Source: Nocardioides jiangsuensis | Lineage (GTDB): Bacteria > Actinomycetota > Actinomycetes > Propionibacteriales > Nocardioidaceae | Reading direction: 5' to 3' | DNA length: 64,000 nt | Assembly: GCF_019679455.1 (NCBI RefSeq) | Contig: NZ_JAIEZQ010000002.1 | Coordinates: 744,001 to 808,000, forward strand | Shown here: positions 20,894-63,079 of the stretch, in pieces | Layout: the number at the start of each line of letters is the position of its first letter | How positions within the stretch are numbered: the first letter of the stretch is position 1 | Notes under the pieces: model-generated | Told to the model about the DNA's origin: nothing | The model's input: the letters and a program-made list of their open reading frames with translations, nothing else | Databases searched by the model: none | Made by a program: the position numbers and the translations under genes

Positions 20894-22201
20894 CTAGGGG
20901 GTCAGCCGGTTCAGGTCCCGCGGGAAGAGTCGGGCCTCCCGGATGTTCTCCGCGCCGGTCAGCCGGGCCACCCAGCGCTCGAGGCCGATGGCGAACCCGC
21001 CGTGCGGCGGCATGCCGTGCCGGAACGCCTGCAGGTACCCGTCGTACGGCTCCTCCGACTGCCCGGACGCCCCGAGCGCCGCCTGGTACTCGGTGTAGCG
21101 GTGCAGCCGCTGGCCGCCCGTGGTCAGCTCGAGCCCGCGGAAGAGCAGGTCGAACGAGTTCGACCACTGCGGGTCGTCGGGCTGCGGGTGGGTGTAGAAC
21201 GGCCGCTTGCGCATCGGGTAGCCCTCGACCGCGAGCAGCTCGCTGCCGTGCTCCTCGACCGCCCAGGCGCTGAGCGCGCGCTCGTGCGCCGGAGCGAGGT
21301 CGGGCTCGTCCTCGGGTGCCCCGACCAGCCTCAGCGCCTCGGAGAAGTGGATGACGGGGATCTCCTCGGGGACCACGGGCAGGCGTACGTCGAGCAGGGA
21401 CACGGCGTCCGCGGCGAGCTCCTCGACCGCGGACACCATGCCGGCGAGGGCGCCCCGGAGCACGGCGAGCACGTCGCGGTGGTCCTCGATGAACCCGAGC
21501 TCGGCGTCGAGCGAGACGTACTCCGCGATGTGGCGCACGGTGTCGTGAGGCTCCGCGCGGAACACCGGCCCCACCTCGAAGACCCGCTCGAACACCCCGA
21601 CCAGCGTCTGCTTGTAGAGCTGCGGGGACTGGGCCAGGTAGGCCGGCTTGCCGAAGTAGTCGACGGTGAACACGTTCGCACCCGACTCGGTGCTCGTGCC
21701 GACCAGCTTCGGGGTCTGGATCTCGGTGAAGCCGTCGGTGGTCAGGGCGCGCCGGAAGCCCTGCATGCTGGCCGACGCGATCTGCCAGGCCGCCTTGCGG
21801 CGCGGGTGGCGCAGCGTGACGGGCGCGTGGTCGAGCAGCGTGGGCAGCCCGGCGGCCAGGGTGGGACGCCACAGCTCCACCGGCGGGGTGTGCGCCGGCT
21901 CGGTGAGCGGTACGACGACCGGGTCGACGAGCTCCACGCCGCCGGGGGCGGCGCCGTTCGCGACCAGCGTGGCCGTGACCGACACGACGGTCTCCTCGCC
22001 CAGAGCGGCCACCTGCGCGACGGTCTCGGGAGCCTTGACCACCACCTGGGTCAGCCCCGATCGGTCGCGCAGGATGAGGAACGTGACGGCCGCGAGACTG
22101 CGGCGGCGGTGGACCCAGCCCTGGATCGTGACGGTCTCGCCGGGCGTGACGTGGGGGAGCTGGCTGGCCAGCGTGCGTGGTGCGGACTGTGTGCGAAGCA
22201 T
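20894..22201 (-). CDS. aspS: Archaeal-type aspartyl-tRNA synthetase
   Basis: A 435-aa class IIb synthetase that charges tRNA-Asp. After an OB-fold anticodon domain (VTIQGWVHRRRSLAAVTFL) it has motif 2 VFRAEPHDTVRHIAEYVSLD and motif 3 GGFAIGLERWVARLTG, ending FPRDLNRLTP as archaeal/eukaryal AspRS do. The roughly 580-aa length and GAD insertion of bacterial AspRS are absent. The His in GWVHRRR and the Pro in ANGAAPGG resemble nondiscriminating enzymes that also charge tRNA-Asn (inference from recalled determinants). The ATG at 22201 follows GGAGGT, which is masked by the T-box hairpin. The gene may come from horizontal transfer, and a bacterial AspRS may exist elsewhere. Confidence 0.93.
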   Translation of the reverse strand: MLRTQSAPRTLASQLPHVTPGETVTIQGWVHRRRSLAAVTFLILRDRSGLTQVVVKAPETVAQVAALGEETVVSVTATLVANGAAPGGVELVDPVVVPLTEPAHTPPVELWRPTLAAGLPTLLDHAPVTLRHPRRKAAWQIASASMQGFRRALTTDGFTEIQTPKLVGTSTESGANVFTVDYFGKPAYLAQSPQLYKQTLVGVFERVFEVGPVFRAEPHDTVRHIAEYVSLDAELGFIEDHRDVLAVLRGALAGMVSAVEELAADAVSLLDVRLPVVPEEIPVIHFSEALRLVGAPEDEPDLAPAHERALSAWAVEEHGSELLAVEGYPMRKRPFYTHPQPDDPQWSNSFDLLFRGLELTTGGQRLHRYTEYQAALGASGQSEEPYDGYLQAFRHGMPPHGGFAIGLERWVARLTGAENIREARLFPRDLNRLTP

Positions 22202-22209
22202 CGGACTCT

Positions 22210-22410
22210 CACCTCCTGGATGTGCCCCAGGAGGTGTGGGCGACGGGGGATTTCGCTGTGCCACCACACCTTCGTCGCCGTCAAGCCGAGGCGACCTCAT
22301 TCGTCGAGCATGCTCGGGAGTGTCTTCGACGCCGGGATGGACTCCGCCCTCTCAGCAGTTCGGGCGGCTCTCTGTGCTCCACCGGTCGGCGGCTACTCGT
22401 CTCCGTCAAC
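22210..22410 (-). ncRNA. Translational T-box riboswitch, specifier GAC (tRNA-Asp)
   Basis: All T-box parts can be traced on the minus strand. Stem I: base GGAG (22401-22404) with CUCC (22317-22320); S-turn AGUA (22394-22397); specifier loop GAA-GAC-A with the Asp codon GAC at 22322-22324; helices GCCG/CGGC and GGUGGA/UCCAUC; AGAGAG (22368-22373); hairpin CCGCCC/GGGCGG closed by GAACUGCUGAGA. Antisequestrator: GGUGUGG (22264-22270) with CCACACC (22233-22239), 7-nt bulge UGGCACA (22257-22263), and GCGA/UCGC. UGGC can pair with GCCA of a tRNA with discriminator G, as tRNA-Asp has. The SD lies in a hairpin, CACCUCCUGG (22227-22236) with CCAGGAGGUG (22210-22219), that shares 4 nt with the antisequestrator. 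Uncharged tRNA-Asp should free the SD. Confidence 0.93.
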
Positions 22411-22421
22411 GCAGTGCGCAG

Positions 22422-22427
22422 ATCCTA
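22422..22427 (-). promoter_or_regulatory. -10 hexamer TAGGAT for the T-box/aspS transcript
   Basis: TAGGAT on the minus strand lies 18 nt before the base of T-box stem I, so RNA starting about 7 nt after it would hold the complete riboswitch and little else. TGACGG, 17 nt further upstream, is a weak -35 candidate. Confidence 0.55.
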
Positions 22428-22456: not shown

Positions 22457-24532
22457 TTACGGCGTCGGCCGGACCGTCCAGGTCAGCGGCGCCGCGGTGC
22501 CGGTACGCGCGACCGTCAAGGTGGTCGGGCTGCTGCCGGGGAGACGAGCCAGGAAGGTCATCGAGTACGTCGACGCTCCGGCCGGCACGGTGAACGTCAG
22601 CCGGGTCGGGGCGTCGTGCATGCTCTCGGAGCAGTCGACGTCGCACAGACGGGCCTCGGGGTCCTCCAGCGACACCGTCAGCGTGTCGCCTGCCTGCACC
22701 CCCGCGACGGTCAGCGACACCTGGTAGCGGTGCCTGCCGGCGCCCTGGTCGGACGGGCTGGTCACCGTCGGGGAGCCGTCGAAGGCGAGCCCGGCCGGCG
22801 CCGGCGTGGTGTCCTGGTCGACGGGGGCACCGCCACCGAGGTCGTCGCCGTCCTTCGCACCGCCGGTCCCGTTGCCGGGCTCGTCGCCCGACACCTGGTC
22901 GGCGCCCTTGTCACCTCCGCCGGCCTGGTCGCTGTTCCCGTTGCCGCCGGCGCCGTCGGAGCCGCTGCTGTTGCCGGGGTCGTTGTCGTTGCCGCCACCG
23001 GGCTGGCCGTCGCTCTGTCCCGGGGTCGTGTCCTCGTCCGGCGTCGTGCCGTCACCGGGAGGGGTCTCCTCGCCGGGAGGAGTGACCTCGCCCGGAGGTG
23101 TCACCTCGCCGGGAGGGGTGACCCCGTCGCCGGGCGGCGGAGTCTCGTCGGACGGCGGACCGGGGTTCTCCACCGGACCGGGGCCGGGCGTGGTGCCGGG
23201 GTCCGTCGGGTCGACGGGGTTCACCGGGTCCGTGGTGCCCGGGTCCACCGGCGCAGGCTCCGTCGGGTCGACCGGGACCGGAAGATCGGTCGGGTCGACG
23301 GGCGCCGGGAGCTCGGGATCGATCGGGTCGACCGGGATGGGCAGGTCGGGATCGGTCAGGTCGACGGGCGGCACCGGGTCGGTGAGGCCGGGATCCACCG
23401 GGTCCACCGGGGCGGGAGCAGTGGGCTCCGCTTGGACCGGCAGCTCGGGACGCGTCTGGTCGGCGAAGGCGGCGGTGGTCGCCTCGCGCCGTGCGGCGGG
23501 GTCCCGCCTCCGGTCGGACCTGTCCGCGCCGTCCAGGTCGCGGGCGGGTGCCTGGACCACGCCGACCGGCTCGTCGGCGCTCACCACGACCTCGCGCTGG
23601 CCCGGCCAGGCGCCGACGACCAGCGCCGTGGTGACCACGCTCGCGACTCCGGCGGCGACCGCGCCCGTGGCGGCGACACCGACGTTGGCGGTGACCGCGT
23701 CCCGGACCCGGCCGAGCAGGGTGAGGACGCCACCGGCGCCGGCGGCGCCCGAGGAGGAGAGGTACCCGGCGGCCGCCGCGCCCAGCAGCAGCGGGGCGAT
23801 GATGCCGGCGAGGTTCGAGTTGACCTCGTCGAGCTCGACGTACATGGCGGTGCAGCGGCGGCACTCGTCGAGGTGCTGCTCGACCTTGGTCGTGTCGCGG
23901 CGCGAGAGGCCGCGGCGGACGTAGGCGCCGAGGTGCTCGTTGACCCAGCGACACTGGGCGGTCGCGGTGTCGGCGAGGTGCATGGTGAGGAAGGCCTGGC
24001 GCAGCCCCTCACGGGCCCGGTAGGCCAGCGCCGAGACGGAGTTCGCGCTCATCCCGAGCAGGGGAGCGATGTCGGCGGGCTTGTTGCCCTCGACCTCGAG
24101 GTGCCACAGCACCAGCTGCCAGCGTTCGGGCAACGAGGCGAAGGCCCGGGCCGCGGCACCGTTCTCGAAGCTCGTGACGGCGGTGTCCTGGAACGGGATG
24201 CCGTCGTCGTACTGCGCCATGTCGTCGGACGGCTGCACCCGGGAGGCCGCGCGGACCCGGTCGACGTGCAGCCGCCGGACCGCGGTCAGCAGGTAGGCGC
24301 GGAACGCGACGTCGGGACCGCCCCCGCCCTGCAGCACCTGGAGCACCTTCGCGAACGCGTCGGAGACCAGGTCGTCGATGTCGGGACCGCGCACGAGCTG
24401 GCGGCCGAGGCGTTTGGCTGCCTCGACGTGACGGGCGAAGAGCTCGCCGTAGGCAGCCACGTCGCCCCCGCGGACGCGCGAGATCAGCTCGGCGTCGCTG
24501 GGTGCTTGCACACCGCTGAGGAGTTCAGTCAT
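22457..24532 (-). CDS. Sigma factor fused to zinc finger, membrane segments and Pro-rich tail
   Basis: A 691-aa fusion. Residues 15-195 are an ECF-type sigma factor (region 2 DIDDLVSDAFAKVL; region 4 LGMSANSVSALAYRAREGLR). Next comes a zf-HC2-like finger with HLDECRRCTAMY. One or two hydrophobic segments follow (IIAPLLLGAAAAGYL, then VAAGVASVVTTALVVGAW). A linker of over 200 residues is built from PVDP/DPTDP and TPPGEV repeats, and the last 100 residues form a beta-rich domain with CDVDCSE. Fused, membrane-tethered ECF factors are known in actinobacteria; release of the sigma domain by proteolysis or outside binding is inference. If both hydrophobic segments span the membrane, the tail would be cytoplasmic. 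Stop TAA at 22457-22459. Confidence 0.85.
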   Translation of the reverse strand: MTELLSGVQAPSDAELISRVRGGDVAAYGELFARHVEAAKRLGRQLVRGPDIDDLVSDAFAKVLQVLQGGGGPDVAFRAYLLTAVRRLHVDRVRAASRVQPSDDMAQYDDGIPFQDTAVTSFENGAAARAFASLPERWQLVLWHLEVEGNKPADIAPLLGMSANSVSALAYRAREGLRQAFLTMHLADTATAQCRWVNEHLGAYVRRGLSRRDTTKVEQHLDECRRCTAMYVELDEVNSNLAGIIAPLLLGAAAAGYLSSSGAAGAGGVLTLLGRVRDAVTANVGVAATGAVAAGVASVVTTALVVGAWPGQREVVVSADEPVGVVQAPARDLDGADRSDRRRDPAARREATTAAFADQTRPELPVQAEPTAPAPVDPVDPGLTDPVPPVDLTDPDLPIPVDPIDPELPAPVDPTDLPVPVDPTEPAPVDPGTTDPVNPVDPTDPGTTPGPGPVENPGPPSDETPPPGDGVTPPGEVTPPGEVTPPGEETPPGDGTTPDEDTTPGQSDGQPGGGNDNDPGNSSGSDGAGGNGNSDQAGGGDKGADQVSGDEPGNGTGGAKDGDDLGGGAPVDQDTTPAPAGLAFDGSPTVTSPSDQGAGRHRYQVSLTVAGVQAGDTLTVSLEDPEARLCDVDCSESMHDAPTRLTFTVPAGASTYSMTFLARLPGSSPTTLTVARTGTAAPLTWTVRPTP

Positions 24533-62992: not shown

Positions 62993-63079
62993 TGGCAGAC
63001 TAGATGGCTGGTTCCGGTTCCCGTGCCCTCAGACGTGTGGGTGTGACCCGGCGACCGAAAACCCTCGAGAGGAAACCCC

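Follow-up and report, generated by a model that had tools for sequence, protein, structure and literature searches.

A T-box leader with an aspartate specifier precedes a second, archaeal-type aspartyl-tRNA synthetase gene in Nocardioides jiangsuensis and its relatives

Translational T-boxes upstream of ileS were described in Actinobacteria in 2005 (Seliverstov, PMC1262725), and their structures have been reviewed (PMC7583486). In Clostridium acetobutylicum, one of three aspS genes carries a T-box (PMC2494555). T-boxes specific for Asp are also known, and GAC is the specifier in 94% of the Asp T-boxes in TBDB, a catalogue of mostly transcriptional T-boxes for which Actinobacteria were searched using the class II (translational) model (PMC7778990). 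In Bacillus cereus, a T-box has been shown to work on lysK, which encodes an archaeal-type class I LysRS1 (PMC2916919). More generally, second synthetases have been described as helping cells to cope with stress or to resist antibiotics (PMC9437257).

Here we analyze the leader of aspS2, an aspartyl-tRNA synthetase (AspRS) gene in a 64,000-nt stretch of the N. jiangsuensis genome (hereafter the window; Table 1). Judged by its sequence, this leader is a genuine and widely conserved member of the T-box family, whose main oddity is its amino acid and its target. We consider it probable that it is an Asp-specific T-box controlling the translation of aspS2; the product of this gene, a second, archaeal-type and probably non-discriminating AspRS, is likely an inducible reserve. 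Like the actinobacterial ileS T-boxes, the leader combines a UGGN antisequestrator with a hairpin over the Shine-Dalgarno sequence (SD) and has no terminator; it differs from them in its specifier (Ile in those leaders), in its target and in its stem I, which is mostly short upstream of ileS. Its nearest precedents are the C. acetobutylicum aspS and B. cereus lysK T-boxes. The former likewise places one of several AspRS genes under a T-box, but is clostridial and reportedly reads two codons, which is not seen in the window leader. The latter likewise regulates an archaeal-type second synthetase beside a bacterial one, but does so for Lys, in a Firmicute, by antitermination and with a response to uncharged tRNA-Asn as well. 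A long stem I without stem II, as found here, also occurs in the B. subtilis glyQS T-box, which is specific for Gly and transcriptional.

Table 1. Features of the aspS2 leader and gene, in window coordinates
Feature	Position	Strand	Basis or remark
Leader carrying the T-box	22424-22201	(-)	before aspS2
-10 box TAGGAT of leader promoter	22419..22424	(-)	TANNNT conserved in place in relatives
Stem I	22311..22413	(-)	RF00230 alignment; compensatory changes in each helix
K-turn stem of stem I	22413-22411/22313-22311	(-)	
Lower stem of stem I	22404-22401/22320-22317	(-)	
AGUA of stem I	22397-22394	(-)	
Mid helix of stem I	22393-22387/22334-22328	(-)	
Upper helix of stem I	22381-22378/22341-22338	(-)	
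AGAGAG of stem I	22373-22368	(-)	
Apical helix of stem I	22367-22362/22349-22344	(-)	loop GCUGAGA 22356-22350
Specifier codon GAC (Asp)	22322..22324	(-)	within GAA-GAC-A 22327-22321
16-nt linker at position of stem II and IIA/B	22296..22311	(-)	leader alignment
Stem III	22274..22295	(-)	22295-22290 with 22279-22274; pair counts
Antisequestrator	22233..22270	(-)	pair counts; UGGC can pair with G73-CCA of tRNA-Asp
Antisequestrator A1	22270-22264/22239-22233	(-)	
T-box bulge UGGCACA	22263-22257	(-)	UGGC 22263-22260
Antisequestrator A2	22256-22253/22243-22240	(-)	
Sequestrator	22210..22236	(-)	SD/anti-SD complementarity; 22236-22233 shared with A1
Anti-SD CACCUCCUGG	22236-22227	(-)	partner: SD CCAGGAGGUG 22219-22210
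aspS2 start ATG	22201	(-)	SD 8 nt before
aspS2, archaeal-type AspRS, 435 aa, predicted non-discriminating	20894..22201	(-)	NF003483, structure match, residues

All of the T-box motifs listed in an earlier note on this DNA were found on the minus strand where it had placed them, and the covariance-model search that it proposed returned a match to RF00230 at 22418-22233 (-), scoring 43.7 bits and far exceeding chance (E 1.5e-8 over 401 bases, 3.5e-8 when the whole 4-Mb genome was searched). This score lies below the RF00230 gathering score of 93; because not one T-box across 58 related genomes attains 93, those of ileS included, the cut-off appears unsuited to the phylum. The leader has a K-turn stem I with a specifier codon that fits the regulated gene (GAC, AspRS), as well as a stem III and a UGGN bulge whose last base matches the discriminator base. 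At the level of sequence, the elbow-binding motif of upper stem I is also present, with AGAGAG and GCUGNGA conserved. The description of the leader as a full canonical T-box thus holds for stem I, specifier, stem III and antisequestrator, but not for stem II and IIA/B, which an alignment of 28 leaders shows to be absent and replaced by the linker. Since stem II has been described as an optional domain (PMC7583486), membership of the T-box family stands despite this absence. The proposed promoter element TAGGAT is also borne out: in 39 of 42 related leaders a TANNNT box sits at the corresponding fixed place ahead of stem I, compared with 1 of 123 control stretches. A consensus scan of the leader found neither a sigma-70 -35 element nor a full promoter. 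As the whole leader does not fold more stably than shuffled sequences (minimum free energy z -0.30), the case depends on comparison.

Inferred from these elements, tRNA binding, switching and physiological role would be as follows. Stem I would read tRNA-Asp via GAC, with the AGAGAG/apical-loop motif probably gripping the tRNA elbow. When the tRNA is uncharged, UGGC would pair with its G73-CCA end and lock the antisequestrator, which would in turn pull CACC from the SD hairpin; when it is charged, a hairpin of ~10 bp would close over the SD. Production of AspRS2 would therefore rise when charging of tRNA-Asp fails, either through inhibition of AspRS1 or through shortage of Asp, and the enzyme might also serve tRNA-Asn through GatCAB.

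A scan of the window leader found no intrinsic terminator, and the T-box is hence probably translational. In the OFF state, the SD is sequestered by its complement through ~10 base pairs. Across homologues, the longest SD/anti-SD run has a mean of 8.2 within leaders, 7.2 between leaders and 4.1 with shuffled SDs, and the helix is paired in 83% of cells (40-52% in slid controls). Two leaders with unusual SDs, GGAGAU (L104) and GGAGUG (L106), carry matching complements, though conservation of the SD leaves this helix with weak covariation overall. With tRNA, tertiary contacts and ribosome omitted from the fold energies, the modelled ON and OFF states of the window leader are near-isoenergetic (-31.2 and -30.9 kcal/mol, respectively), as expected for a bistable translational T-box.

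The same models qualify how far the switch would open. The antisequestrator removes only CACC (22236-22233), or 4 of the ~10 sequestrator pairs, and once A1 forms, the full sequestrator of -19.7 kcal/mol gives way to a remnant hairpin (22232-22214, -8.7 to -10.3 kcal/mol) that can still cover the AGGA of the SD with 6-7 bp. In the modelled ON state the SD has an unpaired probability of 0.06 in the window and of 0.02 to 0.96 in homologues. By contrast, the ileS leader of the same genome frees its SD more fully under the same kind of model, going from 0.14 to 0.68. Because only four nucleotides are taken and the SD stays largely paired, the mutual exclusion of the two folds claimed earlier is only partial, real in their overlap but limited to it, and the further expectation that uncharged tRNA-Asp should expose the SD goes beyond what the model shows. 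As a remnant hairpin may persist in the ON state, we infer that, rather than the whole SD being bared, freed GGUG(A) would give the 16S 3′ end a foothold from which to open the hairpin. The sequestered SD and the missing terminator speak for the translational assignment; the mostly paired SD of the modelled ON state counts against it.

Incomplete release could alternatively mean that a genuine T-box works chiefly on the fate of the transcript, through Rho-dependent termination or RNA decay of the untranslated message, in which case uncharged tRNA would raise the mRNA level and not access to the SD. Leaders of Chloroflexi relatives nearer the base of the AspRS2 tree lend this some weight, as they contain terminator-like hairpins trailed by T runs, which on visual inspection look transcriptional. 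Given that the window leader has no such terminator and that most actinobacterial leaders keep strong SD complementarity, we regard this alternative as unlikely and favor translational control of aspS2.

The enzyme encoded by aspS2 scores 535 bits against NCBIfam NF003483 (cut-off 353), confirming its designation as an archaeal-type AspRS, and 355.4 against TIGR00458, just below the cut-off of 368.4. Its nearest solved structure is the non-discriminating T. thermophilus AspRS2 (1n9w). At the two discriminating sites it has H31 and P86, which we take to be marks of a non-discriminating AspRS, and the aspS2 product is predicted to be of this kind. A bacterial AspRS gene adjoins hisS in the window genome, and each of the 24 genomes tested, of which 22 carry aspS2 and 2 lack it, has exactly one bacterial aspS. 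No asnS scored over cut-off in any of 10 genomes searched, and gatA is present in the window genome; AspRS2 is thus a second AspRS, with Asn-tRNA presumably made via transamidation. Candidate AsnRS matches in the window genome turned out to be the two AspRS genes (aspS2 and the bacterial one) and a third frame, read here as LysRS. With a bacterial AspRS in the genome and no AsnRS found, aspS2 would be a reserve enzyme, likely an inducible backup that is switched on when the main AspRS fails.

GAC occupies the specifier position in 28 of 28 aligned leaders and directly follows GAA in all 44 long-form leaders, while TGAC[AG] is held by 34 of 38 leaders of shorter or other forms. The tRNA-Asp of the window genome has anticodon GUC and discriminator G73, so UGGC can pair fully with its G73-CCA end; both the Asp specificity and the fit to a discriminator G proposed from the window alone are thereby supported. 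The ileS T-box of the same genome (L002, G000:C1:523809-524038), itself apparently translational, provides an internal contrast with its AUC specifier and UGGU. If AspRS2 charged tRNA-Asn for GatCAB, the T-box might answer tRNA-Asn too, or instead, as H31 and P86 and the lack of asnS could suggest; a two-codon T-box in Clostridium is said to offer a parallel. However, the invariant specifier leaves no AAC frame, the frames beside it reading AGA and ACA, and we think a response to tRNA-Asn very improbable compared with one to tRNA-Asp.

To compare leaders, relatives of aspS2 were fetched from named genomes and 28 long-form leaders were aligned end to end with plain MAFFT; pairs were counted in this alignment, unfitted to structure, with the window leader as the reference structure. 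The proposed pairs hold in 92.0% of cells (79.7% after shuffling), and both-sided changes occur at 24 of 41 pairs, a number reached in none of 500 shuffles. In total, 149 cells are double-changed, compared with 51 in shuffles, none of the 500 shuffles matching the observed pairing or double-change values, and sliding the partners by 1-3 columns lowers pairing to 36-43%. The covariation predicted for homologous aspS leaders is thus present. The compensatory changes sit in every helix of stem I and in stem III, the latter paired in 97.5% of cells with both-sided changes at 5 of 6 pairs. Antisequestrator helices A1 and A2 are paired in 100% of cells, yet almost invariant. Likewise, little or no variation is seen in AGUA, AGAGAG, GCUGNGA, GAAGACA or the core AAGGUGYGGUGGYACNGCGA. 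That the leader is instead an N-terminal extension of aspS2 and the element a relic or chance resemblance, as an in-frame ATG at 22300 and an orphan T-box without aspS2 in genome G248 might suggest, is practically refuted by the compensatory changes, which rule out coding sequence, by leader length changes that are not multiples of three, by the SD placed before the ATG at 22201 and by relatives that have the fold in common but no common reading frame. The anatomy, conservation and covariation of the leader, its specifier and discriminator match and its gene context are established.

Among Nocardioidaceae, aspS2 occurs in 94 of 342 genomes, and the T-box core lies 37-351 nt upstream of it in 88 of the 94 genes. 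Three of the 91 cores of aspS2 type in the family are not beside a detected aspS2: one is at a contig end, one is a coincidence inside an open reading frame (G344) and was rejected as a T-box, and one is the orphan of G248 (L139, G248:C1:1055727), a relic leader whose aspS2 is gone, which indicates that decay does occur. At four aspS2 genes of the family (L141-L144, in G210, G025, G027 and G032), one of them apparently leaderless, no T-box was found. One genome that already has an Asp T-box carries a second at a contig end (L100, G029:C11:273), followed by an aspS2-like start with 52% identity over 50 aa. In the window's genus, aspS2 is missing from two of four species, and there the empty site is flanked by doxX and a sigma-factor gene. 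In the window, a single open frame of 691 aa (22457-24532, (-)) directly upstream of the leader combines an ECF sigma factor region with a zf-HC2 anti-sigma-like zinc finger. Elsewhere in the window, an L31-Actinobacteria ribosomal protein leader (RF03158, 39.7 bits) lies at 63008-63056 (+).

With this distribution, which extends to other phyla, the earlier suggestion that an Asp T-box on an archaeal-type AspRS is new proves overstated. There are precedents for Asp T-boxes, for translational T-boxes and for a T-box on one of several AspRS genes; their combination is unpublished as far as we found. Text searches, with partial coverage of the literature, brought up neither an actinobacterial Asp T-box nor aspS2 as the subject of a paper. 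Actinobacterial aspS2 goes unmentioned in the text of the TBDB paper, though as TBDB covered this phylum, some aspS2 leaders may be listed there uncommented (PMC7778990). What appears new to us is an Asp/aspS2 T-box class across Actinobacteria and Chloroflexi, a repeated loss of upper stem I and a form in Intrasporangiaceae apparently without elbow motif and stem II.

Leader architecture varies considerably around the window form of a long stem I without stem II. Several Micromonosporaceae, Pseudonocardiaceae and Chloroflexi relatives have much longer stretches at the linker position. In a quick tree of 59 AspRS2 proteins, supported by SH-aLRT only and with several open forks, leaders with long and short stem I are intermixed, and the starred branches force at least 4-5 changes of stem I form, the short label having been assigned automatically to a class that mixes several forms. 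The clade of the window (97*) takes in Terrabacter, Intrasporangium and Humibacillus. Their leaders have neither an upper stem I nor a stem II, but retain a K-turn, GAC within CCUGACGAU, a linker of 15 nt, stem III and the antisequestrator of the window form. Six leaders from these genera and Terracoccus (L019, L022, L023, L025, L027, L079) have this ultrashort stem I in ~100 nt, with stem I and linker almost invariant between genera; they are possibly among the smallest T-box forms. Other Nocardioides leaders upstream of aspS2 (L020, L033-L037, L042-L049, L081, L086) carry a short stem I of another kind (GAGGCCTGACAACCCTC); in most of them a highly conserved stretch, CCGCGCGTCCGGCGTACCGACGAGAGG, comes next and may form a distinct stem II.

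Tentatively, then, the orthologous Asp T-box/aspS2 unit may be a natural aptamer series running from long to ultrashort, with aspS2 as an actinobacterial emergency AspRS, although we would not yet call this probable. Its forms would be a long stem I without stem II in the window; a long stem I beside an extended stem II region in some Micromonosporaceae and Pseudonocardiaceae; a short stem I and a stem II of another kind in Nocardioides and Rhodococcus; and an ultrashort stem I without stem II in the sister group Terrabacter/Intrasporangium. If functional, the last would be a T-box without both known contacts to the tRNA body, using codon, stem III and acceptor contacts alone.

Together, these findings would add to the translational ileS T-boxes of Actinobacteria an Asp class upstream of a second synthetase gene, with one regulated gene served by aptamers of widely differing size. 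Such natural variants of a single specificity make it testable which tRNA contacts translational regulation needs. Furthermore, the regulation of aspS2 predicts the role of the gene as a reserve AspRS; if this is true, aspS2 may be a resistance factor against antibiotics that target AspRS.
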